Virus record (IMG/VR): IMGVR_UViG_3300044995_000278
Span: 1 to 29,500 of that record
Strand: one strand, 5' to 3'
DNA from: a virus
DNA length: 29,500 bases
The notes under the pieces are model-generated. The model made no database searches and was not told the DNA's origin. It saw only the letters and a program-made list of their open reading frames with translations. Positions 13,837 through 27,528 of the stretch are shown here, piece by piece; positions within the stretch are counted from its first letter, which is position 1, and each line of letters starts with the position of its first letter. The position numbers and the translations under genes are program-made.

Positions 13837-14377
13837 AGGATTAATTAAAAATTTAGTATATCCATTTACTTTAAAAGGTTTTTTAAAAGGAGATATTATT
13901 GAAAATGTTGTTAAATTTAGCTATAAATCAAAAATAGATTTAAATAATTACAAAGACATTTTAGAAAAATTTTATAAGGGTTCTGATATTTTTTTTAACA
14001 TAGCCTTTGCTCAATCAGATTTAGAAGCCGTTAAAAACGGTGATAAAGCTTTAGTAAAATATTATACTTTTGTTAGTAATAATATTAATAAAATACCAAT
14101 AGCTGACAAAAGCAATAGCTTTGTAGTGTTTTCAAAGAATATCACTAATGAGTTTAAAAAAGCAAAAGAAATAAAAGGCAAACATTATAGTAAAGAAAAT
14201 TTACTACTTTACACTAGAAGAAAAAAGTTGTTTGTTTTAGAAGGTGTTAATAAAAGTAAAATATTTTTAAAAAGGCATCACCCAATATTAGAATATAATT
14301 ATGCTAAAATAGAACAATATGTTAATGACATTGGTATAAGTGGTTCTGCTAGATTTATAAAGTTAAAAAAATATTAA
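13829..14377 (+). CDS. Hypothetical protein downstream of primase
   Basis: 182-aa ORF with ATG inside the last codons of the primase gene, so probably translationally coupled. The sequence is basic overall (pI clearly high from the many Lys), with YTRRKKLFVLEGVNKSKIFLKRHHP around residues 127-152 and a C-terminus ARFIKLKKY. No signal peptide, membrane segment or catalytic motif. A nucleic-acid-associated role would fit the basic charge and the neighbours, but I do not recognise a family. The stop codon shares TTAA with the convergent co-chaperonin gene. Confidence 0.65.
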   Translation: MYKGLIKNLVYPFTLKGFLKGDIIENVVKFSYKSKIDLNNYKDILEKFYKGSDIFFNIAFAQSDLEAVKNGDKALVKYYTFVSNNINKIPIADKSNSFVVFSKNITNEFKKAKEIKGKHYSKENLLLYTRRKKLFVLEGVNKSKIFLKRHHPILEYNYAKIEQYVNDIGISGSARFIKLKKY

Positions 14378-14748
14378 ACTTTTTGTATAGATTTATCAAA
14401 TTTGCTGTTAATTTGATTTTCTATTTTGTTTATTAATCCGTCAATAACATTTGTATTTGTTATTTCAATGTTGTCAATATTATCAGAAAAGCTACCAAAA
14501 ATTTCTTTTATACTTAAAAGAATAAATTTTTCTTTGTTAAAAGAGACATTAATACCAGCAGTTTGATTAAAAAATACTTTATCACCTATATTAACTTTAC
14601 CTTTTAATGAATCTGGAATAGCTACCACTATTCCATTATCATACATTTTTTTATTAAAATTAGAATGTATCAGCAATCCATTCCTTTCTAATTCTTCTTG
14701 TCTTAGTTGTCTAACAAGGACGTTATTAAAAAATGTTCTTTTTATCAT
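14374..14748 (-). CDS. GroES-like co-chaperonin (gp31 analogue)
   Basis: 124-aa protein with the GroES order of elements: NNVLVRQLRQEELERNGLLI (residues 8-27), where GLLI corresponds to the hydrophobic mobile-loop tripeptide that binds the chaperonin, then GIVVAIPDSLKGKVNIGDKVFFNQTAGINVSF (about 39-70), matching 'G-VVAVG ... vkvGDkVlf-kyaG', then KFILLSIKEIFG, matching the final 'ylilrE-DI'. A C-terminal extension (~88-124) is extra. In T4, gp31 replaces GroES to fold the major capsid protein; that role is inferred here. Divergent from gp6 with only 27 bases between start codons; convergent with the upstream plus-strand gene. Confidence 0.8.
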   Translation of the reverse strand: MIKRTFFNNVLVRQLRQEELERNGLLIHSNFNKKMYDNGIVVAIPDSLKGKVNIGDKVFFNQTAGINVSFNKEKFILLSIKEIFGSFSDNIDNIEITNTNVIDGLINKIENQINSKFDKSIQKV

Positions 14749-14775: not shown

Positions 14776-16383
14776 ATGGATTATTTAAAAAAAGACGAAG
14801 TTATTGGTAGTAATTTGTTAGAATCAACCATATTATTTTTATCAAAAAAATATAAACAAGCTAGAAAATTATTTTCTTTTTCTTCTGCCTACGGTCAATT
14901 AATAATAGTTATTAAAAATATAAGCCAATATCTTTATTATTATATGAATGATGTTGCTGTACAAAACAACTTTCATACAGCAGATAGAAAACATTCTGTT
15001 TTTGGTTTAGCAGAATTAAATGGACATAGTGCTTTAAGAGGTAAAAGTGCAATTGGTGAGGTTTCTATTAAATTTAAAGAAAATTTTCCATTAGAAACTA
15101 TTTCTGGAAATTTAGTTTACATTCCTAATTTTAGTAGGTTAAGATGTTTAGCTAATAATTTAGAATATATTTTAGACATTAATCAAGATTTTTTAATAAT
15201 AAATTCTAATACAAAAAATTCTATAAAAGCTAAGATAATTCAAGGTAAATTAGATTTCCAAAGTTTTAGAGGAGATGGTGAAGATTTACAATCTTATCAA
15301 GTTCAATTACAACCTTCTGACATTACTGACCATGATTTTATCATAGTAATGGTCAATGGTAAGAAATATCCAATCTATGAATCATTAATGGATATCCCTT
15401 TAAATCAGCCTGGATGCTTAATAAAAAATACTGTAGATAACGGATTTGCTGTAGTATTTGGGAAAAGTAGTGTTCATGAAATACCACAAAAGGGTAGTGA
15501 AATAATTGTAAATTACTTATTGAGTGATGGAGCTAATGGCAATATAATAAAAGTTAATTACATCAATTATATTTTTTTAGATTCTGGGATCGATGCTTCT
15601 GGTAATGATGTTAATTTAAATGATTTTCTGTATGTAACTAATTCAATGCCTCCAGATTTTGGTGCTAACCCAGAAAGCATAGAATTAACTAAACTAATTG
15701 GACCAAAAGTACAAAAAAATGCAATTATACATGATAAAAATTCTATAGAATATTACTTTTATAGAATGAATTATTTTAGAGTTGTTAGAGCTAAAAGAAG
15801 AGAGAATAATGATAACATGAATCATTATGATACTATGGTCATTCCAGACTTAAGGCTAAGAATTGCTGCTAATGAAGACTATTTTAATGTTCCCATAGAT
15901 AAATTTTTATTATCTAAACTTGAAAAAGATAGATTATTAACTTCTCTAATAGAAAGCTATAGATTAAGTTCTAATATTAACTTAAATATAATAAGTCCTA
16001 AACTTAAAAGATTTGCATTAACATTATTCATAAAAGCTTATAAAATAAAAAATGGAGTAATAACAAATGAACAAATATTATTAAGTAAGATAAGATCAAT
16101 GCTTAGTGAATATATGATAAACAACTCTAGAATTAACATAATTCCACATAGCGATATAGTAAGAGTAATAGATGAAATAGATGAAGTTGATTCTGTTAAA
16201 GTAGTGTTTTTCCCTCAATACAAAGAAGATGTTGACCAATTTGGAGATATTGTCGTAAAAGAAAATGAATTAGCTATTCTTAGAGGAAACTTCATTACAG
16301 AGGATGGAATAGAATTTATAGACACTTTTAATAATTCAGAAGAAAATTCTGTAGTAACAATAAATATTGAGTATATTTCTTAA
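14776..16383 (+). CDS. 6: Baseplate wedge protein, T4 gp6 / baseplate-J type
   Basis: 535-aa protein with the features of the gp6 wedge family. N-terminal residues ~55-80 read YMNDVAVQNNFHTADRKHSVFGLAELNGHSALRG, the 'A-R-K-S-V-x-x-x-A-x-x-x-G-Y' module of contractile-tail baseplate proteins. The middle is beta-rich. Residues ~295-315 have FGANPESIELTKLIGPK, the turn that precedes the tail region. The C-terminus has IIPHSDIVRVIDEIDEVDSVKVVFFP, GDIVVKENELAIL and a closing G-rich strand. T4 gp6 is 660 aa, so this is a shorter version. gp6 dimers tie the wedges into a ring around the hub. No frame problem. The next gene starts after a single base. Confidence 0.72.
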   Translation: MDYLKKDEVIGSNLLESTILFLSKKYKQARKLFSFSSAYGQLIIVIKNISQYLYYYMNDVAVQNNFHTADRKHSVFGLAELNGHSALRGKSAIGEVSIKFKENFPLETISGNLVYIPNFSRLRCLANNLEYILDINQDFLIINSNTKNSIKAKIIQGKLDFQSFRGDGEDLQSYQVQLQPSDITDHDFIIVMVNGKKYPIYESLMDIPLNQPGCLIKNTVDNGFAVVFGKSSVHEIPQKGSEIIVNYLLSDGANGNIIKVNYINYIFLDSGIDASGNDVNLNDFLYVTNSMPPDFGANPESIELTKLIGPKVQKNAIIHDKNSIEYYFYRMNYFRVVRAKRRENNDNMNHYDTMVIPDLRLRIAANEDYFNVPIDKFLLSKLEKDRLLTSLIESYRLSSNINLNIISPKLKRFALTLFIKAYKIKNGVITNEQILLSKIRSMLSEYMINNSRINIIPHSDIVRVIDEIDEVDSVKVVFFPQYKEDVDQFGDIVVKENELAILRGNFITEDGIEFIDTFNNSEENSVVTINIEYIS

Positions 16384-16384
16384 T

Positions 16385-17668
16385 ATGGAAAATTTTTTAA
16401 AATCATTAAGATCTTATCTTGAACAATTTGCTGATTTAGATATCAGCACTGAAGAAGGTAAACAAGAATTATTTCTTTATGTAATAGATTTCATTAGGGA
16501 CAATATAGACGATGTTGAAGAAGCTTCTAATTTAATAGAATTAGTTCAGCATATAGCAAGAGAATTTCCTGAAGATGGAGACATTGAATATTTTATTGAA
16601 CAATTTAAAGAACAATCTGGATTAAGTGAATCATTAACAAACATAAATAATATGGAAAATTATAAAATTTTAGTGTATCATTTAACAAAAGAAGTTACTG
16701 AACACAACCATGAAGATGGGTCTATTGGAAATCCTAAAGTTACTTTAGATGAAAAAGTTGGTATTAAAACAAATCTAAATGATTTACTAGAAAAAATTTC
16801 TGAAGAATATAATTTACCTTTAATAAAAACTAATTGGTATATTAAAAGTAGTAAAGAGCCATTTGAATTTTATTTAGTATATGAGAGATTAGAAAATTCT
16901 AATGGTCGAGAGCCATCAAATAAAGAAATGGAAGATTTTAAAAATGGAGACATTAACTTATTTGATGTAGAATACACCTTCTTTATAGAACCAATTAGAG
17001 AAGAATTAACATTAGAAGAAATTTCTTCAGCACTTGGTATTGGCGTAAATGAATCAATTAATGAAAGCGATAATAAATCATCACAACCAGTATGGGTCAT
17101 TTCAGAGGAAATGCAGGCTGCTGCAATTTTTACATTAAATAGTGGTGAAGATTTGTCAAAATTAGATGGACAAAAACTAGTAGATCTAGTAAGCAATTCT
17201 GTAGATGAAGAGCCAGGCACTTTTAAATATATTAATAAATTTAATAAAGATGGGCTAACTATAATTAAAGCACAAAATAAAGAAACATCAAATTGTGATT
17301 ATATTATCTTTGGTGACAATCTTTTTTATAATAAAAAAGATGCTGATAAAATTATAAAAGTTGCTAAAAATTTTATAGGACTTGAGTTAGATGAAAAAGA
17401 TATAACATCGTTTTCTAAAATTAATGAAGACTTTAATATGGACGATTATTCTGATTATAAAGAAAATTATGACAATTGGAAAGTGATCAAAGAAAAAAAC
17501 AAAAAATTAACGGATAAAGATAGAGAAGAGCTTACTAAAAGAATAGATTATTTAGAAGAATTAGCTATGGATGAAGATGCTAATTCTGAAAAAATGGATG
17601 ATTATTACAAAGAGGCATTATATCTTTACAGAATATTAACGTTAACTGATCCAGCATGGGTTCAGTAA
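16385..17668 (+). CDS. Acidic protein of unknown function, possible head-internal protein
   Basis: I place the start at ATG 16385 (MENFLKSLRSYLEQFADLD), right after the gp6 stop, rather than 18 bases upstream inside gp6. The 427-aa protein is strongly acidic. Residues 1-80 are helical (DNIDDVEEASNLIELVQHIAREF). A repeated motif VNESINES lies at 221-228, LSES at 80-83 and KINED near 340. The C-terminus is charged and helical (DREELTKRIDYLEELAMDEDANSEKMDDYYKEA). The (I/L/V)-x-E-S motifs resemble prohead-protease sites and recur in the 924-aa protein at 20136-22910, so both could be processed core or internal head proteins. Position after gp6 suggests late expression. Family not recognised. Confidence 0.65.
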   Translation: MENFLKSLRSYLEQFADLDISTEEGKQELFLYVIDFIRDNIDDVEEASNLIELVQHIAREFPEDGDIEYFIEQFKEQSGLSESLTNINNMENYKILVYHLTKEVTEHNHEDGSIGNPKVTLDEKVGIKTNLNDLLEKISEEYNLPLIKTNWYIKSSKEPFEFYLVYERLENSNGREPSNKEMEDFKNGDINLFDVEYTFFIEPIREELTLEEISSALGIGVNESINESDNKSSQPVWVISEEMQAAAIFTLNSGEDLSKLDGQKLVDLVSNSVDEEPGTFKYINKFNKDGLTIIKAQNKETSNCDYIIFGDNLFYNKKDADKIIKVAKNFIGLELDEKDITSFSKINEDFNMDDYSDYKENYDNWKVIKEKNKKLTDKDREELTKRIDYLEELAMDEDANSEKMDDYYKEALYLYRILTLTDPAWVQ

Positions 17669-17782: not shown

Positions 17783-19345
17783 ATGCAAGATTTAATTGCA
17801 TTAATTAACAATGATTGGAAAAATGCTTATGCTATATTAAACAAAAATAAGTTACTAACAGAATTAATTAATATTACTAAATTTCTACCAGACAATTGTA
17901 CTTGGAGTCAAAGAATATGGCATTTAAAAAATAATTTACTAGCAATACCCAAATGCCCTCAATGTAATATTAATGATGCGGTATATTCTAGATCAAAAAG
18001 TAAATATACATTTTGTTCTACTAAGTGTAATAGAGATTACAGTTTATCTAAACAATTAAATACAGTATACAAAAAATACGGAGCTAATTATTTTCAATCT
18101 AATGAATTTAAGAATAAAATAAAAGAGTCATTAAAAAGTAATTATGGTCTTGATTATTCTAAAAAAATATCAGAAAAAGCTAAAAAGACTATTATAGGAA
18201 AATATGGTGTTGATAATATTAATAAAATAAAGGGATCTGTTGAAAAAGGATTATCTACAAAAAAGAAAAAATTTGGAGAAAATTTTGGTAAAATTTTATC
18301 AGTAAAGGCTAAAGAATCTATTATAAAAAATCATGGAGAAAATTTTTATATAGATGGTTTGTTGGCTACTAAAAGAAAAGAATTTTTTAATCGTAGAATA
18401 AGAGAAATTATTGATGATGAATATGAAATTGTAAAATATGGCAGCATTTGTGAAATAATTCATAAAAAATGTGGCCAGAAAACTTCTATAGTTAGAAGCA
18501 CTTTAATCAATAGAAACCTCAATGATAGAGAGCTATGTTTTTATTGTAATCCTAAAAATAGTTCTCAATTACAAAAAGAATTTAAAGAATGGCTTAAAAG
18601 TGTATATAATGGAGAAATAGTAACTGGCTGTAGAAATGTTATTTCTAAAGAATTAGATTTTTATCTACCAGAATTAAAGTTAGCTATAGAATTTAATGGT
18701 TTGTATTGGCATTCTGAATTATTCAAAAAGAAAAATTATCATAAATTAAAGTCTGATGAATGCGATAATAAAAATATTAAATTGATACACTTGTGGGAAA
18801 ATGATTGGTTATATAAAAAAGATATAGTAAAGAGTATTATAAAGAATTATTTTAATGTTGGTAAAGCAAAGGTGTACGCTAGAAAGTGTATTATTAAAAA
18901 AGTTGGAGTAGCAGAAGCTAGAGAATTTACTAATAAGAATCATTTACAAGGATTTGTTAATCATACTGTTTGTTACGGTTTGTATCACAATGGAGAATTA
19001 GTACAATTAATGAGTTTTATTAAAAAGAAAGATCATTGGGAAATTCAAAGATTGTGTACTAAATTAGAAATTAACGTAATTGGTGGAGCAGAAAGATTAT
19101 GGAACTATTTTTGCGAAAGCAATAAACCGAATTTTGTAATCACTTATTCTAATAGAGATTATTTTATTGGTAAAGTTTATGAAAAATTAGGAATGAACTT
19201 TGAAAAAATTACAGAGCCAAGTCTATTTTACTATAACCGTATTAATAAAACAGTTATTAGTAGGCAACAATTTAGAAAAATGAAATCTAATGATTTTTTA
19301 AAAATTTTTAACTCTGGTAATTACAAATTTTATAAAAAATTTTAA
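17783..19345 (+). CDS. Free-standing homing endonuclease, Vsr/EDxHD type
   Basis: 520-aa selfish-gene endonuclease. Order: N-terminal helical part; zinc ribbon with C-x2-C and C-x3-C (CPQCN at ~58, FCSTKC at ~76-81); five short DNA-binding repeats of the form 'KYG-x-x-N/Y' (YKKYGANYF, KSNYGLDYS, IGKYGVDNI, KKKFGENFG, IKNHGENFY; ~92-195); a second Cys set (KKCG ~227, CFYC ~251); the Vsr-like nuclease core ELDFYLPELKLAIEFNGLYWHSE (~287-310) followed by KLIHLWENDW; and a C-terminal acyltransferase-like module (GGAERLWNYF, NRDYFIGKVYEKLGMNF) common in phage homing enzymes. Inserted between virion genes. A hairpin and direct repeat lie upstream. The 3' end shares TTAA with the convergent gene. Open and apparently intact. 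Confidence 0.82.
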   Translation: MQDLIALINNDWKNAYAILNKNKLLTELINITKFLPDNCTWSQRIWHLKNNLLAIPKCPQCNINDAVYSRSKSKYTFCSTKCNRDYSLSKQLNTVYKKYGANYFQSNEFKNKIKESLKSNYGLDYSKKISEKAKKTIIGKYGVDNINKIKGSVEKGLSTKKKKFGENFGKILSVKAKESIIKNHGENFYIDGLLATKRKEFFNRRIREIIDDEYEIVKYGSICEIIHKKCGQKTSIVRSTLINRNLNDRELCFYCNPKNSSQLQKEFKEWLKSVYNGEIVTGCRNVISKELDFYLPELKLAIEFNGLYWHSELFKKKNYHKLKSDECDNKNIKLIHLWENDWLYKKDIVKSIIKNYFNVGKAKVYARKCIIKKVGVAEAREFTNKNHLQGFVNHTVCYGLYHNGELVQLMSFIKKKDHWEIQRLCTKLEINVIGGAERLWNYFCESNKPNFVITYSNRDYFIGKVYEKLGMNFEKITEPSLFYYNRINKTVISRQQFRKMKSNDFLKIFNSGNYKFYKKF

Positions 19346-20082
19346 ATATTATAAAACCCAGAATCTTCATCCGAATTAATAGAACCAAATCTGATTAATT
19401 TTCCATTACGAATTTCTTCTGGTTTATTATCGTTAATATATTTAATAATACCGTTCCTTGCTAGTGAAGTGTAGAATTTGAATGAGTCTGGAGGTGTTTC
19501 AAATTTATAAGTACTTTTTTCTTTTACATCTTTCTCACCTCTTAATAGAGGTACTTTACTTTTAAGGTATATGGTCAATGTACTTGCTGCTTCAGGATCT
19601 GGCTTATTGTAAATGTCTATTATATTAATTTTATAGGTTACTTTATGTAAAGATGCTACTATCATTCCTTTTAGATTAGTATTTATAGAATCTCTCAAAT
19701 TTTCTAGTGATTTGTTAACAGTACTTCCTATTAAAAAATCAGATTCGCTTTTCAATTCTTTTTCTCTAGCTGTAAATTTAACTTTTTTATCAGTGTTAAA
19801 AACTTCTATTTCAATAATTTCTCCTTCAATAAAATTCCTGTCTTTATTTAATTTTAATTGTATTAAATTATCTTCTTTAAAATTTCTCCAATACAAAATA
19901 AAATCTTTTATACTATTAGCAACAGCATCTTGACTTTCTTCTGGGTCTTCAAAGTAAAATAATTTTACTACTTCGTTAGCAAGTGTTGAAAAATATTCTA
20001 TTGCTTTATTAGACAGGATGTCATTTTTTTTACATAATGACATTTCTCTATGAAAAGCCTTAGGATCAATGTAATTAGCCAT
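19342..20082 (-). CDS. 55: Late sigma factor, T4 gp55-like, with an inserted domain
   Basis: The N-terminal ~70 residues (NYIDPKAFHREM, DILSNKAIEYFSTLANEVVK, QDAVANSIKDFILYWRNF) follow the pattern of T4-like gp55: 'YVxNKEL', 'LANGLSxxxNF', 'DMIxDGIxxxLKxxxNF'. The C-terminal ~49 residues (FKFYTSLARNGIIKYIND onward, ending DEDSGFYNI) match the next gp55 element, 'NPFAYFTQIxxNAFxxxI', in sigma region 2. Between them, residues ~71-197 are unrelated: beta-rich, with VKFTAREKELKSESDFLIGS and SLENLRDSINTNL, resembling a 'FTA ... FLIG-s ... nLxxaIN' module of phage structural proteins. So a sigma factor appears interrupted by a ~125-residue insert without intein end residues. T4 gp55 is 185 aa. Expected role: directing host RNA polymerase to late promoters. 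The alternative is a structural protein with coincidental similarity. Confidence 0.55.
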   Translation of the reverse strand: MANYIDPKAFHREMSLCKKNDILSNKAIEYFSTLANEVVKLFYFEDPEESQDAVANSIKDFILYWRNFKEDNLIQLKLNKDRNFIEGEIIEIEVFNTDKKVKFTAREKELKSESDFLIGSTVNKSLENLRDSINTNLKGMIVASLHKVTYKINIIDIYNKPDPEAASTLTIYLKSKVPLLRGEKDVKEKSTYKFETPPDSFKFYTSLARNGIIKYINDNKPEEIRNGKLIRFGSINSDEDSGFYNI

Positions 20083-20135: not shown

Positions 20136-22910
20136 TTAGTTGGATTTTGCTTCTCTTACAAATCGAATACAATAATCTTCATTTAATTCAATAACCTCAC
20201 CATCAGAATCTTCAAATACAAATATCTTTTCTAGATTAGCAGCTCTATAGTTGCCATTATATTTTAAATTATTTTTATAAGGAGGTATTTTATATAAACA
20301 ACCTTCATTTAATTTATTTAAATCAAATGGTGTAAATTCCTCAACTTCATCCAATGAAACGTTTTCTACCTCTTCAAAATCTTCTCTTAATAATGAATTA
20401 ATAGATTCATTGAAAATCAATAATGATTCTTTTGGTGTGTATAAATTATTAGACTCATTAATTTTGTCTACTTTCAAGCGATAAACTTGATTATCAACAA
20501 ATTTGGTAATCTTTTTTGACTTTTTACTTTCCAAAAGTTTAATAAAAGCTTTCTTTTTGAATTGTTTAGATTCAGCAATTAAAAATGGTACTTTTGTTTC
20601 TTCATCTAAACCAACTTGAAATTCTATTTTAGCTTCTGTTAATATTTGTGCTATTTTTTCTATATTAGATTCATCAGTTACTATTATTCCTTCATAGCAA
20701 GTGCCAATTCCTTTAATTAAAGAATTTATTTTTTTATCTTTCAGTGATAACAGAGATTTAGATTCTGAAACATTAAATTTTTTTGCAAAATTAAATCCCT
20801 TACCTTTATTGTTATTTTCGTTAATATTACCTAAAACCTTATAATTGGTAATTACAAAATCTAAAGTAGTGTTTTCTCCAGCAGCTATAGCGTCTTTTAT
20901 TTCATCTTCAGATAATCCATAATAAAAGATATTTTCATCATTTTCATCAACATCATCATGTTCTTTCACTATAAGACCACTAAATTCTGATTTATCATCT
21001 TTAAAATATCCATCTATAGAAAAATATTTAGATGTAGTATTGTGTGATGATTCATTAATAATCTTTGCAACACTAGAATCTTTTTGAGTGACCATTAATT
21101 GCTTTTCTGGATCATAGATAAATGTTTTTTTACCATTAACAAATCCTTCAAAGATACCATTTTTCTTTATTATTGAATGGTCATCTTTTTTATTGAAAGT
21201 TTTTACTATTTTAGCCCAACTTTCATTAGTTACTTGTAATTTCATATTTTTAGATTCTTTTGTGAATATTTTATTGAAATTCTCTTGATTATAAGGGTTT
21301 TCAAAAAATTTATTTAGTTTTTCTATTTTATCTTTTTTGACCTTTTCAGAATAGTTAGATTTATTAACAATTTCTAGTATGTTATTTTTAACATCATTTA
21401 TATTCTCTGATTTAACTAATTTAGTAATATATTCACCCAATAATTCTTTTAATTTATTGTCTTCAGAAGGAAAAGTTTGCAATGATTCTTCAAGAATGGT
21501 TTCCTCTTCATCCTCTAAAGCTTTTTCAAGTTCATCATCTAATGACAATTCTTCTTCATCCTCTAAAGCTTTTTCAAGTTCATCATCTAATGACAATTCT
21601 TCATCTTCTTTTGACGTATCTTCAAGTTCATCATCTAATGACAATTCTTCATCTTCTAATGAATTTTCTTCACTAGCGATTTTTTCTAAAGCCTTCTTAC
21701 CATCATTTAATACTTCTTCTTTCTTTTTTATTTGATTTATTTTTTCTTCTATGATTGTTTTTTCTCCTTTCAATTTTACATATAAATCTTGTATGTCTTG
21801 ATCTTTTTTTGTATCCTCATCAAGATCATCAATTTTTCCTAAATTAGTTTCAACTATCTGTAGTTTATTTTCTAGTTCTTCTAATTGTTTTTTTGATTCA
21901 TCTGATAATTCTGTTTCTTCTATGTCGCTAGTACTTTCAAGTTTTAATATTTCATCACTAATAGATTCATTAATCAATTTAACGTTTTCTTTATTAAAAG
22001 GAACTACCGTATTTTCGCCTACTATAGCAATAGAACCATTAGGGACTGGTGTCATTGCAATTGATTCGTTGTCTCCACTAATAACAATCACACCAAGATC
22101 ATTTAACATATTGACATATTGTTTGGCAGAATCTTGTATTTTTTGTGGTAATTTTTCAATTCCTTTCAAATCCATTCCTACGGACAAATCAAAATCTTTA
22201 ATGTAAATCTCTTTTGCTGTTGATATAAATTGGCTAGTTATTGTTAAAAATTCAGCTATTCTATTTTTTTCTTCTTCTGTGAAGTCTCCATTAACATCAA
22301 ATAATTCTAATTGTAGAGATTCATTAATCTTTATTAGTTTACCATCTACCACAGTTAGTTTTTTATTACCTAACTTTAATTCTGGTAAAAGTTTTGTTAC
22401 ATGCATTACTCTACCGTCCTTTGTGGTAAAATAATCTATTGCACTTTGTGAATCAAAAGATATTTTAGATAAGTTATACATTAATTTAACAATATCTTCA
22501 TGTAAATGTCTTTTTCTTCCAAATTTAGAATTTAAATAAGCAAAAATTTTACTACTTGGTAAGCTTAAAGAATTAAACAACGTAACAATTTCATCTGAAT
22601 ATAAATCTTGATCATCTTCTGATAATTTTTCTATGGTACTTTGAACAAGATAGTATGCTTTAAATCTTTGTTTTAATTTTTCTTGCTCTTCTTTAGTTAA
22701 TTTTAAATCTTTACTGGATATATTTTGTAAAATATTAATATAATAATCGTTTAAAACTTTTGGTTGAATAGAGTTATAATTTTCGTTAATAGGTACATAT
22801 TTTCCAGAATCAGTTCTAATAGATAATTTTTCATTACAAATTAATCTTTTCTCAATTAATTCTGGATTATTTAAAACTGATCTAAAATTATCAAAAATTT
22901 CTTTTATCAT
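20136..22910 (-). CDS. Large acidic coiled-coil protein with prohead-protease-like motifs
   Basis: 924-aa protein, no family recognised. Residues 1-330 are mixed alpha/beta (VTKLLPELKLGNKKLTVVDG, IVISGDNESIAMTPVPNGSIAIVG). Residues ~330-415 are a coiled coil (KKQLEELENKLQIVETNL). Residues ~416-475 are a 16-residue acidic repeat (ELSLDDELEKALEDEE). Beyond 480 come charged helices and beta segments, ending in a compact domain (~860-924, YKIPPYKNNLKYNGNYRAANLEKIFVFEDSDGEVI) that looks like an SH3-like barrel. INES occurs at 195-198, 313-316, 618-621 and 817-820, with TNES, FNES, IAES and LLES elsewhere, similar to the T4 gp21 cleavage consensus (I/L)-x-E. A scaffold/core or processed internal head protein is the best guess. 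It lies upstream of the sigma gene on the same strand and is divergent from gp15. Confidence 0.7.
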   Translation of the reverse strand: MIKEIFDNFRSVLNNPELIEKRLICNEKLSIRTDSGKYVPINENYNSIQPKVLNDYYINILQNISSKDLKLTKEEQEKLKQRFKAYYLVQSTIEKLSEDDQDLYSDEIVTLFNSLSLPSSKIFAYLNSKFGRKRHLHEDIVKLMYNLSKISFDSQSAIDYFTTKDGRVMHVTKLLPELKLGNKKLTVVDGKLIKINESLQLELFDVNGDFTEEEKNRIAEFLTITSQFISTAKEIYIKDFDLSVGMDLKGIEKLPQKIQDSAKQYVNMLNDLGVIVISGDNESIAMTPVPNGSIAIVGENTVVPFNKENVKLINESISDEILKLESTSDIEETELSDESKKQLEELENKLQIVETNLGKIDDLDEDTKKDQDIQDLYVKLKGEKTIIEEKINQIKKKEEVLNDGKKALEKIASEENSLEDEELSLDDELEDTSKEDEELSLDDELEKALEDEEELSLDDELEKALEDEEETILEESLQTFPSEDNKLKELLGEYITKLVKSENINDVKNNILEIVNKSNYSEKVKKDKIEKLNKFFENPYNQENFNKIFTKESKNMKLQVTNESWAKIVKTFNKKDDHSIIKKNGIFEGFVNGKKTFIYDPEKQLMVTQKDSSVAKIINESSHNTTSKYFSIDGYFKDDKSEFSGLIVKEHDDVDENDENIFYYGLSEDEIKDAIAAGENTTLDFVITNYKVLGNINENNNKGKGFNFAKKFNVSESKSLLSLKDKKINSLIKGIGTCYEGIIVTDESNIEKIAQILTEAKIEFQVGLDEETKVPFLIAESKQFKKKAFIKLLESKKSKKITKFVDNQVYRLKVDKINESNNLYTPKESLLIFNESINSLLREDFEEVENVSLDEVEEFTPFDLNKLNEGCLYKIPPYKNNLKYNGNYRAANLEKIFVFEDSDGEVIELNEDYCIRFVREAKSN
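21511..21654 (-). repeat. 48-bp tandem repeat encoding an acidic 16-residue unit
   Basis: Three copies (21511-21558, 21559-21606, 21607-21654), in frame on the minus strand, encoding variants of ELSLDDELEKALEDEE. The first two are nearly identical and the third is diverged in its first third, so the array probably grew recently by slippage or unequal recombination. Confidence 0.85.
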
Positions 22911-22948: not shown

Positions 22949-23674
22949 ATGTATAATCAAAAACGTTTTAGTAACAGAGTACTAGTTGGATTATCATCAT
23001 TCTTATATGACTGTCTAAGTATAGTAGAAGTTAGGCATAATATAGAAGAAGTAGTAAGAATACCATTTTTTATAGCAGAAAGTGGTGAAGAACAATTTAT
23101 GAAAGATTTATTCTTAGATCATGATAAGTATAAAAATGAACTTTCTTGTAAGGTAGATGGCACTGTAAATCAAGTTCCTAGAGGTGTTATCAAAATGCTA
23201 TCTCCATCCGTACTTTCATCTGATATGCCAAATCATTATAACAAAATGGTCTATAACAAAGTAGTTGATGCAGAATTTTCTAAAGAAATAAGAAATTTTG
23301 TGAGCTTAGGTCATTATAGACCTATGTTATACAATTTTGAAATAACTATTAGATGCTCAAATCATGATCAAAGATTAAATATATTTGATAATATAATAGA
23401 TCAATTGACATATTCTAGATACTTTTATTTTTCTTATGATGGTTTTCCAAAGCTCAAAGCTCAGATAAAATTTCCAGATGACTATTCTGTTGACAGAGAA
23501 TATAAAATATCTTTTTCTAATAATCCAAAACCAGAATTATCTTTTAATTTGGAACTACGTTGTTATAAGCCTATAATAGACGAAAGAAGTGAGTATCATT
23601 TAAATAATACGATTAAAAAATCACAAGTGGCTTATGTCGAAAAAAACAGAATTCAATCAGGAGAAGATTCTTGA
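22949..23674 (+). CDS. 15: Tail completion / sheath stabiliser, gp15-like
   Basis: 241-aa protein with the T4 gp15 style. The N-terminus has RFSNRVLVGLSSFLYDCLSIVEV, then IEEVVRIPFFIAESGEEQFMKDL (residues ~30-53), matching 'IxVPIxYxxxExFxxR'. The middle has VPRGVIKMLSP where gp15 has its 'LPRMSFEI' strand. GHYRPMLYNFEITIRCSNHDQRLNIFDNIIDQL (about 120-152) follows 'PVPYxxxFxLxIxxxxxxDxxQIxEQIL', and the C-terminus ends in a strand LSFNLELRCYKPI like the final gp15 strand. T4 gp15 is 272 aa and caps the tail before head joining. The assignment is from ordered resemblance, not a catalytic motif. The next gene starts inside its last 41 bases. Confidence 0.55.
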   Translation: MYNQKRFSNRVLVGLSSFLYDCLSIVEVRHNIEEVVRIPFFIAESGEEQFMKDLFLDHDKYKNELSCKVDGTVNQVPRGVIKMLSPSVLSSDMPNHYNKMVYNKVVDAEFSKEIRNFVSLGHYRPMLYNFEITIRCSNHDQRLNIFDNIIDQLTYSRYFYFSYDGFPKLKAQIKFPDDYSVDREYKISFSNNPKPELSFNLELRCYKPIIDERSEYHLNNTIKKSQVAYVEKNRIQSGEDS

Positions 23675-24702: not shown

Positions 24703-27528
24703 TTAATAAGGATTAGTTAATATACAATCTATTTGACCTCTAATACGAGTATCAGTACCTTTATTATTAAGTTCAGTAAATAGAAATCTTAATGCTTTTG
24801 TATTAGCAGCTGCTATTACAGAAACTGCCTGATTTGTACCACTTATTTCAAAAAACGTTGCTGTAGAATATGAATTATTTTGAAAATTAGAAGTTAAAAT
24901 GGGAGTAAGATCAACATGATAAGTTCCAACAGGACTATTACCAAAATTTTGATTTATATCAAAATTAATATGTAAATTTTTACCAAATCTTTTGAGAATA
25001 AAAGTACCAGAACAAGATGATGTAGTATGTGCTGGAGGTAAATTACCATCTAAGTTAAGTGAAGTAGCATATTTTGTTGTTAAATTAATTGAATTATGTA
25101 TGACTATTGGTCTATAAGGCACTCCAGGTATTGAAGGATCAAAACCATTGTCTACTCCAAATATGTGTGAAATAGCACCACCAAAAAAGGTAGAATTAGT
25201 AACAACATGCCATACTATAACTTGACTAAAACCAAGAATAAACTTTCTATTTTTTAATTTAATAACACTTCCAGAATTTAATGTTATATAATGATTAGTA
25301 CCATCATATAGTAATTGTTCATATTCAGAATAAGTTACTATAGGATCACCTGATGATAAAGTTAAATCATTTATTATAATTTTTGTACTTGCTCCAAAAG
25401 TACCACCTATTAAAGTTATTTCAGTACCATCAGATATACTAGCTATTCTTTTTATTACTGGAATTGCACTAGAATTTATATAAAAAGTATTTCCACCATC
25501 CTTTGGTAGCGTTAACAAACCACCAAAAGTAATATGAGAACCATTTAATATGGTAGGATAAGCTGCTTCCTCTTGTAATGCAGTCCATCTTTGATTTTTA
25601 TTTGTGTATGCTTTTCTATACCAAGCACTCCATTGATAACCAAAATTGTTAAGGTTAATATAAAAGAAATTTCTTTTTCTTTCCCAAATGTCTGGTGGTT
25701 CTTGAGTATTATTTAAAGATATTTGTTTTTGAATTACGTTTCCAAGCGATGAATCATGAATAACTTCTGTTATTATATTATTGTGTCCAATAGGTGATCT
25801 ATTGGCACAAGTAACAGATACATCACTCTGTCTCCAAATGCCTGGTTCTATCAAGTTATTAAAATCAGAAGATATGTCTCCTGATTCAAAATATCTTGAT
25901 TGATTATGATTAACAAAATTTTCTTCTATAACATTCCAATATGAATTTGCAAAATCATATTTTAGTTTAATTGATTCTTTCTCAAAAATATACAGTCTAC
26001 CAATAGAAGACGTAATGTTTAAGTTACCCCCAGAATCTAATATTAGACCACCATTAACTGGAGTTATTGTTATTATTTCATCATTTTTTGGATTAGAAAT
26101 ATTTGAAACTACATTAGCCAATGAGCAATCTAAATTAATACTATTACCAGAAATAGTATTCATGTTTAACGTACCACTTGGAGGACATAGTACGTTAATA
26201 CTAGAAACACCCAGTCTAGTATTTACCAATAATATAGAATTGTTGTTGCTGGATATTACTAATTCATTAGTAACGTTTATACTAGATGATGGATTACTAC
26301 CACCAATATTCATTGTTAAGAAATCAACAACAATATTTTCAGATGTTATTTCTATTGGTTCTGAAATAAGATTTGATAAATTTATTATTTTAACGCCTTT
26401 TACAAAGTGAATCTCATTTGTTAATACACCACTAGTAGTACTATCAAATTTAATTATTGGATAATCTACTAAAATTTGTGCAGTAGTGTTACTACTAGTT
26501 GTTACAATTTCTAAGTTGTCTCTAGTATTAGTTATTTTAACGCCATTAGTAACAAATCCTATTTCTATAAAATCTGTGTAACTTAATATTTGACTATTAT
26601 ATGGTGTAATTCTAAATTTTGATGTTTTTATTATAGCTTTATTTCCTAATGGATTAATATAATCATGCTCAAAAAATAAAGCACTTTCATTATTATTTGA
26701 TAAGCCAAATATACTCTTATTTAAAGATTGATATTCTTTATAATTAATATAAGAACTTCTAGCACCAACATTAGAGTTTATAGCTTCTCTATATTTGAAC
26801 GCTAATTGTGCAAAAAAATTACTACCTGTTGGTTCTATATCTCCAGCAGTATTACCATTAAACTCATCAATTACGTTAGTAACTACATTAGAAAAGTTTT
26901 GTACTCCAGGAAATGTGTTAGTTCCTATTAATAATCTGAAAAATTCAGCTTTGTCAGTATTAGTTAATGGAAGGGCTGTTCTTTTTGCTAATACAACACT
27001 GTTGTTATTTTTATTCAATGCTGTACTTAATGGATTCTGATTTGCATCAACATCTGTATTATAAATTACAAATTTGGTAATAGTATTACTACTAAGAGCA
27101 GCAAATGCATCTTGTGAAAATAAGAATAAAGGTAAAGATGAACCTATTATATTAAGTTGAAACTCATAGTATAGATTTCCATTAACTAGATTTTTCTTTA
27201 CGAGAAAAAAATCACTTTGTACGTCTATTAAAACATCATCTTCTAAGTGACCACTTAATGGATTAACTGGATCACCATCGTTAACATCTAAATTAGTAAA
27301 CCAAATCCTACTTCCACGATCTCCTTTATCTCCTTTATCTCCTTTAACTGTAAATCCTGGATCTCCTTTATCTCCTTTATCTCCTTTATCTCCTTTTTTA
27401 CCACCTCCAAAATTAACTATCTCATTAAAATTCTCATTTAATTTTTCTATAAGAATTTCAATTGTATCATCTGGCTTAATTTCTCTTAAAATAAGATTGG
27501 GATAATTAATGTAAGGTATATTACTCAT
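24703..27528 (-). CDS. Tail fibre with collagen-like repeat
   Basis: 941-aa receptor-binding or fibre protein. Residues 1-40 (MSNIPYINYPNLILREIKPDDTIEILIEKLNENFNEIV) look like an attachment segment. Residues ~44-74 are collagen-like Gly-X-Y triplets (GDKGDKGDKGDPG and GDKGDKGDRG) interrupted by FTVK, expected to form a trimeric helix. Residues ~75-900 are N/S/T-rich beta sequence with ladder-like strands. The final ~110 residues, from HTTSSCSGTFILKRFGKNLHINFDI, resemble a globular tip of the 'GTFILxRxG' kind seen at fibre ends. It probably determines host binding. The start follows the upstream stop by one base and a small Gly-rich protein follows. No chaperone or lyase motif seen. Confidence 0.8.
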   Translation of the reverse strand: MSNIPYINYPNLILREIKPDDTIEILIEKLNENFNEIVNFGGGKKGDKGDKGDKGDPGFTVKGDKGDKGDRGSRIWFTNLDVNDGDPVNPLSGHLEDDVLIDVQSDFFLVKKNLVNGNLYYEFQLNIIGSSLPLFLFSQDAFAALSSNTITKFVIYNTDVDANQNPLSTALNKNNNSVVLAKRTALPLTNTDKAEFFRLLIGTNTFPGVQNFSNVVTNVIDEFNGNTAGDIEPTGSNFFAQLAFKYREAINSNVGARSSYINYKEYQSLNKSIFGLSNNNESALFFEHDYINPLGNKAIIKTSKFRITPYNSQILSYTDFIEIGFVTNGVKITNTRDNLEIVTTSSNTTAQILVDYPIIKFDSTTSGVLTNEIHFVKGVKIINLSNLISEPIEITSENIVVDFLTMNIGGSNPSSSINVTNELVISSNNNSILLVNTRLGVSSINVLCPPSGTLNMNTISGNSINLDCSLANVVSNISNPKNDEIITITPVNGGLILDSGGNLNITSSIGRLYIFEKESIKLKYDFANSYWNVIEENFVNHNQSRYFESGDISSDFNNLIEPGIWRQSDVSVTCANRSPIGHNNIITEVIHDSSLGNVIQKQISLNNTQEPPDIWERKRNFFYINLNNFGYQWSAWYRKAYTNKNQRWTALQEEAAYPTILNGSHITFGGLLTLPKDGGNTFYINSSAIPVIKRIASISDGTEITLIGGTFGASTKIIINDLTLSSGDPIVTYSEYEQLLYDGTNHYITLNSGSVIKLKNRKFILGFSQVIVWHVVTNSTFFGGAISHIFGVDNGFDPSIPGVPYRPIVIHNSINLTTKYATSLNLDGNLPPAHTTSSCSGTFILKRFGKNLHINFDINQNFGNSPVGTYHVDLTPILTSNFQNNSYSTATFFEISGTNQAVSVIAAANTKALRFLFTELNNKGTDTRIRGQIDCILTNPY
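27321..27398 (-). repeat. 9-bp tandem repeats encoding Gly-Asp-Lys
   Basis: Two runs of the plus-strand unit CTCCTTTAT (27321-27346 and 27363-27398), complement of GGA-GAT-AAA triplets, coding the collagen-like GDK units. Slippage here would alter fibre shaft length in steps of three residues. Confidence 0.85.

Follow-up and report, generated by a model that had tools for sequence, protein, structure and literature searches.

The DNA analysed here is a 29.5-kb viral fragment (the window) with T4-type genes, namely those for a UvsW helicase, a head-closure nuclease, a gp32-like SSB, a primase and a gp6-like baseplate wedge protein, and it comes from a T4-related phage, whose hosts are probably Bacteroidetes bacteria. 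Most of the larger ORFs of the window have matches in Flavobacterium phage MaF61 (PQ858689), the nearest isolate that we found. The genes at 19342-20082, 20136-22910 and 22949-23674 follow the order of MaF61 ORF75-76-77, and they are listed here with a further acidic ORF of the window:

16367..17668, plus strand: 433-aa acidic ORF after gp6, with adjoining VNES and INES at 229/233 and with LSES88.
19342..20082, minus strand: conserved neighbour, homologue of MaF61 ORF75 (34% identity, E 6.5e-41).
20136..22910, minus strand: 924-aa acidic multi-module protein, a proposed precursor and head-internal polyprotein (from the ORF, the motif statistics and its place as positional counterpart of MaF61 ORF76).
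22949..23674, plus strand: conserved divergent neighbour, homologue of MaF61 ORF77 (E 1.4e-10).

The 924-aa protein has a pI of 4.75 (D+E 186 vs K+R 130). We found neither a Pfam match above cut-off nor an embedded peptidase, LPD or effector domain in it; PHROG and Pfam likewise gave no match to the gp22 family (scaffold families diverge fast), and no whole-length relative turned up in the viral contigs searched. MaF61 ORF76 (590 aa) is also acidic and aligns with the 924-aa protein in its coiled coil alone (residues 334-420), a weak match with an E value of 0.001. The corresponding slot of LR756500, an uncultured phage, is situated some 2-7 kb from gp4-like, portal, protease and MCP genes, and the 617-aa positional counterpart there shows no sequence similarity to the 924-aa protein above shuffles. 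Relatives sought in viral contigs via ORF75 and gp6 alignments were not found.

The tetrapeptide INES occurs four times in the 924-aa protein, ending E197, E315, E620 and E819, exactly as an earlier note on this sequence had reported, and TNES563, FNES835, IAES780, LLES794, LNEG869, INEN43 and INEN698 come in addition. By shuffling the protein 5000 times, we obtained expectations of 0.06 for INES (4 seen), 0.18 for [ILMF]NES (5 seen) and 3.1 for [IL]xE[SAG] (10 seen, P 0.0004). The earlier note would have taken an equal motif frequency in non-virion genes as a refutation; in other genes the motif proved to be rare: all the remaining ORFs of the window, 8,686 aa combined, hold a single [ILMF]NES. 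With a refined motif, [ILMF][NF]E[SAG], the 924-aa ORF is the sole enriched one out of 27 in the window (7 vs 0.49, p 9e-7); this motif was picked after inspection of the 924-aa protein and of the motif-rich proteins of relatives described below, which makes its p-values optimistic. First, the other letter permutations of INES occur 0-1 times each, except NESI (3), which overlaps INES, and together with the shuffles this rules out amino acid composition as the source of the excess. Second, the codons vary among the INES copies (GAA/GAG, TCT/TCA/AGT) and the one DNA tandem repeat is confined to the acidic segment, which rules out a DNA repeat. Since the site codons differ between copies, selection acts on the peptide.

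We then modelled the full 924-aa protein with AlphaFold2 (AF2). The mean pLDDT is 55, and the domain limits given below rest on that model:

21651..21911, minus strand: long coiled coil, residues 334-420 (AF2 pLDDT 89-94 over most).
21501..21650, minus strand: acidic tandem repeat with a 48-bp unit, residues 421-470 (TRF 3.1 copies, 90% matches).
21264..21467, minus strand: helical module, residues 482-549 (AF2 pLDDT 71-91).
21051..21254, minus strand: TBP-like small alpha/beta module, residues 553-620, ending at INE↓S620 (AF2 pLDDT 84-94 over most).
20817..21050, minus strand: proposed small cargo module, residues 621-698 (with homologues among phage proteins of ~75 aa that stand alone).
20490..20708, minus strand: tentative ferredoxin-like module, residues 735-807, holding IAES780 and LLES794 (AF2 pLDDT about 48-73).

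The coiled-coil and acidic segments that the earlier note had described thus correspond to residues 334-420 and 421-470. Module 553-620 scored a VIA Z of 8.5 to the N-terminal part of RNase H3 (4py5_A) and Z ~7 to RnlA, and module 735-807, for which AF2 predicts the order beta-alpha-beta-beta-alpha-beta, a generic Z of about 6, values that for such modelled modules indicate a shared arrangement, not function.

The candidate cleavage sites, with an arrow for the proposed cut, distribute over the protein as follows:

22779..22790, minus strand: INE↓N43, possible site, uncertain with N at P1' (in low-pLDDT segment 42-48).
22317..22328, minus strand: INE↓S197, proposed cleavage site (low-pLDDT linker 197-201).
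21963..21974, minus strand: INE↓S315, proposed cleavage site (upstream of the coiled coil).
21048..21059, minus strand: INE↓S620, proposed cleavage site (junction of two modules).
20814..20825, minus strand: INE↓N698, possible site, uncertain with N at P1' (module end; low-pLDDT 695-741 next).
20451..20462, minus strand: INE↓S819, proposed cleavage site (in low-pLDDT 796-896).
20403..20414, minus strand: FNE↓S835, proposed cleavage site (in low-pLDDT 796-896).
20301..20312, minus strand: LNE↓G869, proposed cleavage site (in low-pLDDT 796-896).

None of the eight (I/L/F)NE motifs falls inside a predicted domain core, all of them being outside cores or at their edges, compared to four of the six remaining motif hits (IFEG588, LTEA759, IAES780 and LLES794; Fisher p 0.015). 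TNES563 is also inside a predicted fold. Because they sit within predicted folds, TNES563, IAES780 and LLES794 are probably not sites. The variants that had been counted as extra sites therefore divide, FNES835 and LNEG869 outside the folds being kept as candidates and these three being dropped.

We next looked at the motif in the phages MaF61 and PAU. MaF61 was chosen through homology of other genes, and the motif patterns in both phages are independent of the initial pick of the 924-aa protein. First, among 187 MaF61 ORFs tested with Bonferroni correction, the refined motif was significant in two, ORF140 (13 vs 0.68) and ORF123 (10 vs 0.35). In the 1404-aa product of ORF140 (113692-117906), a gp21-type prohead protease is fused to a scaffold-like part of great length; PAU gp151 and proteases from Lak, pT24 and Rhizobium phages are homologues of the protease part. 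We also noticed shorter protease-scaffold fusions resembling ORF140 in pT24 (gp140), Lak-A1 and LR756500. ORF123, likewise of 924 aa, has LNE↓S10 near its N-terminus, a NUDIX domain (332-439) between LFE↓S316 and LNE↓G468, and phrog_11458 (a profile of 85 positions) at 844-914, directly after LNE↓S841; free-standing relatives of phrog_11458 are found in PTm1 (80 aa) and pT24 (89 aa). Second, PAU (JQ362498) is a related phage, with related capsid protein, protease and gp6, and 18 of its 296 ORFs are tagged at the N-terminus with MK...LYE[AS], in many cases with xLNE[AS] coming next. The tag tends to the form MKT(I/L)xxLYE[AS](xLNE[AS]), and many of the tagged ORFs, most of them unannotated, cluster at 100-113 kb. 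The tag is present on four of the five PAU proteins with the annotation "internal capsid protein" (Fisher p 5e-5; the record does not give the basis of the annotation), and from their sequences we consider the tagged ORFs to be candidate internal head proteins. Third, candidate sites near the N-terminus of capsid genes, another check put forward earlier, were recovered in the MCPs of both relatives (KIYE↓S at 50 in MaF61 and KLNE↓S at 23 in PAU). Finally, the middle residue of [ILMF]xE[SAG] is N or F in 32/53 cases in four precursor-like proteins vs 10/156 elsewhere. As the motif is concentrated in the protease-scaffold protein and in the tags of annotated PAU internal capsid proteins, (I/L)NE↓(S/A) reads as the prohead-protease site of this lineage, as far as sequence patterns tell. 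The 433-aa ORF of the window is possibly a second precursor; the motif is not significant there by itself.

A gp21 homologue, which the earlier note had suggested looking for, is present in the relatives (MaF61, PAU, Lak, pT24 and LR756500) but not in the window, a fragment of 29.5 kb, where a profile HMM gave noise only (best E 0.27); the same HMM scored 1.2e-76 on MaF61 ORF140, which was in its training set. This also rules out the 924-aa protein as the protease itself.

One could argue that the 924-aa protein has no place in the head, being instead associated with tail or baseplate or cytoplasmic, with a motif excess that is coincidental or serves another interaction. The product of 22949..23674 does resemble T4 gp15, the tail sheath stabiliser, though weakly and below cut-off (PF16724, E 0.011), and the refined-motif excess is weak in MaF61 ORF76 (2 vs 0.28, p 0.03). 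However, the excess in the 924-aa protein is far beyond chance and common to the protease-scaffold proteins of relatives, and the LR756500 slot is close to head genes. Hence we hold a non-head role to be the least probable of the explanations considered.

Next, we looked at the pieces between the sites. Module 621-698, bounded by INE↓S620 and INE↓N698, is 49% identical over nearly its full length (E 2e-10) to the 75-aa protein Gundel1_15 from Tenacibaculum phage Gundel_1. Its family spans 22 viral loci including Gundel_1, nearly all of them complete small ORFs, and consists of ~70-75-aa phage proteins (MSKYFSINGYWKDDKSEF...) that lack a Pfam match and have at best a marginal PHROG match. Many free-standing members begin MSKYF..; in the fused copy, the corresponding TSKYF.. 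stands about five residues past the proposed cut at INE↓S620. Modelled alone with its family, the module reached an AF2 pLDDT of 82 with a predicted beta-beta-beta-alpha-beta fold, for which no convincing PDB match was obtained; the best match among viral models was A0A6J5L7P2 (81 aa, E 2.4e-3). We detected no family member in the bacterial genomes scanned with the patterns used, and a search, run without a positive control, for the MaF61 MCP in 20 records with free-standing modules gave none. Being free-standing in many phages and absent from the bacterial genomes scanned, the module suggests, by its distribution, a role in phage-host conflict or takeover.

This is the one module of the 924-aa protein with identifiable free-standing relatives. 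Viral scans gave none for segments 717-780, 870-924 and 551-620, and comparing the other segments with the MaF61 polyproteins (Smith-Waterman against shuffles) gave no Z above 3. In the module layouts of the 924-aa protein and MaF61 ORF123, the motif thus borders units that exist elsewhere as separate proteins.

These layouts also bear on the possibility that the 924-aa protein is a core or scaffold protein only, whose cutting at multiple sites clears the head interior as for T4 gp22 and gp67 and releases no cargo. It is acidic, rich in coiled coil and full of sites, the strongest motif protein of MaF61 is a protease-scaffold fusion, and the cutting of T4 core proteins yields several fragments that exit the head (PMC9026906). 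Against this, about 20 other phages have the folded module 621-698 as a protein of its own, and a NUDIX enzyme domain and phrog_11458 are part of the sister protein MaF61 ORF123. Since a discarded scaffold needs neither a NUDIX domain nor a module of free-standing type, we regard a scaffold without cargo as unlikely, albeit the strongest of the competing explanations.

We rather propose, with a probability of roughly two in three, that the 924-aa protein is a head-internal polyprotein precursor with an acidic coiled-coil core and small cargo modules, cut by the prohead protease. The earlier claim of a multi-site protease substrate made of internal head proteins is partly supported, most computable tests of the sequence being favourable; against it, no T4-style N-terminal targeting tag was found ([LIMF][YFN]E[ASGN] within the first 24 residues). 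According to this proposal, the precursor would join the prohead core via its acidic coiled-coil part. A gp21-type prohead protease, itself probably fused to a scaffold as in MaF61, would then cut (I/L/F)-N-E on the C-terminal side of the glutamate where S or G comes next, as the rule of the family and the pattern in the lineage suggest. The coiled-coil and acidic pieces would serve as core or scaffold and be mostly cleared, and the folded pieces (621-698, and probably 553-620 and 735-807) would be retained as separate internal head proteins and, following T4 practice, probably be ejected into the host with the DNA.

As one piece between sites is a complete small phage protein elsewhere, the 924-aa protein looks like a string of head-packed proteins. 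Going further, it may be a true head polyprotein, in which cargo cassettes of unrelated origin between protease sites are loaded in fixed ratio, freed at maturation and injected; we put this forward tentatively, at somewhat less than even odds. Searching the open-access literature, we did not find a chain of cargo modules split by prohead-protease sites described; the closest are polyvalent proteins. In T4, core proteins cut at multiple sites and tags on single cargo proteins are already known, as are packaged multidomain effectors in the form of polyvalent proteins.

The T4 internal proteins IPI-IPIII and Alt are small head-packed proteins with capsid targeting sequences (PMC9026906). T4 gp21 cuts after L/I-x-E, and fusions to the targeting sequence are packed and delivered (PMC9026906). 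The 924-aa protein has a similar cut rule, and the MKTxxxLYE↓A tags of PAU look like single-cargo equivalents. However, IPI-IPIII and Alt have one N-terminal propeptide each, whereas the 924-aa protein has joined modules and internal sites whose middle residue, unlike theirs, is mostly N. Given that it has no N-terminal targeting tag, it may work like a T4 internal protein without being filed as one. T4 gp22 and gp67 are acidic, helical, multi-site gp21 substrates, much as proposed for the 924-aa protein; unlike them, it bears modules homologous to independent proteins, and it has no detectable similarity to them in PHROGs. Head proteins of the giant phages phiKZ and SPN3US also have several protease sites per protein and long propeptides (PMC5694885, PMC9026906), but their motif is S/A-x-E or A-x-E and the parts removed are propeptides, which are not known to be cargo modules. 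MaF61 ORF140 and ORF123 have the same multi-site (I/L)NE↓(S/A) layout, and ORF123 shares the free-standing-module pattern; they differ in their modules and are not positional counterparts, and ORF140 contains the protease.

Polyvalent proteins of phages and conjugative elements, which have been likened to the polyproteins of RNA viruses (Iyer et al. 2017, PMC5512222), also combine disparate domains, some of them free-standing, in one packaged polypeptide. Were the 924-aa protein one of them, it would be a packaged multidomain effector, injected whole or self-cleaving, and INES a mere linker. Its multi-module build with small domains fits, as does the overrepresentation of such proteins in Bacteroidetes among other lineages (PMC5512222). 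However, release from polyvalent proteins is ascribed to embedded peptidases, mostly zincin-like (PMC5512222), instead of a prohead protease acting in trans at a repeated motif as proposed here, and in the 924-aa protein we found neither such a peptidase nor, in Pfam, an LPD or effector domain. As for the at least two effector domains of such proteins, we found one module with free-standing relatives, a TBP-like fold by model only and no Pfam domain. Moreover, the motif agrees with the cleavage rule of prohead proteases and with the tags on proteins annotated as internal to the capsid. We therefore consider a polyvalent protein improbable, though slightly less so than a protein outside the head.

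Which phage proteins are packed in the head and injected is usually hard to know without proteomics. If the cassette arrangement is true, one gene would load several host-directed proteins into the head, and the cut sites would list the injected proteins of the lineage from sequence alone. If (I/L)NE↓(S/A) is the protease mark of T4-related Bacteroidetes phages (MaF61, PAU, pT24 and perhaps Lak), this injected set could be read from genomes, and would comprise about 18 tagged PAU proteins and the modules of MaF61 ORF123 and the 924-aa protein. In such a system, a DNA phage would also offer a counterpart to the polyproteins of RNA viruses, one in which capsid maturation is linked to both packaging and release.

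Three other genes of the window were noticed. First, a GroES-like protein is phage-encoded at 14374-14748 on the minus strand (Pfam Cpn10, E 3.9e-11), and MaF61 has two annotated chaperonin genes side by side. Second, a homing-endonuclease gene at 17783-19345 on the plus strand (phrog_3339, E 9e-91) adjoins the ORF75-like gene. Third, the minus-strand gene at 24703-27528 encodes a fibre-like protein in which a short stretch close to the N-terminus, GDKGDKGD, is collagen-like.
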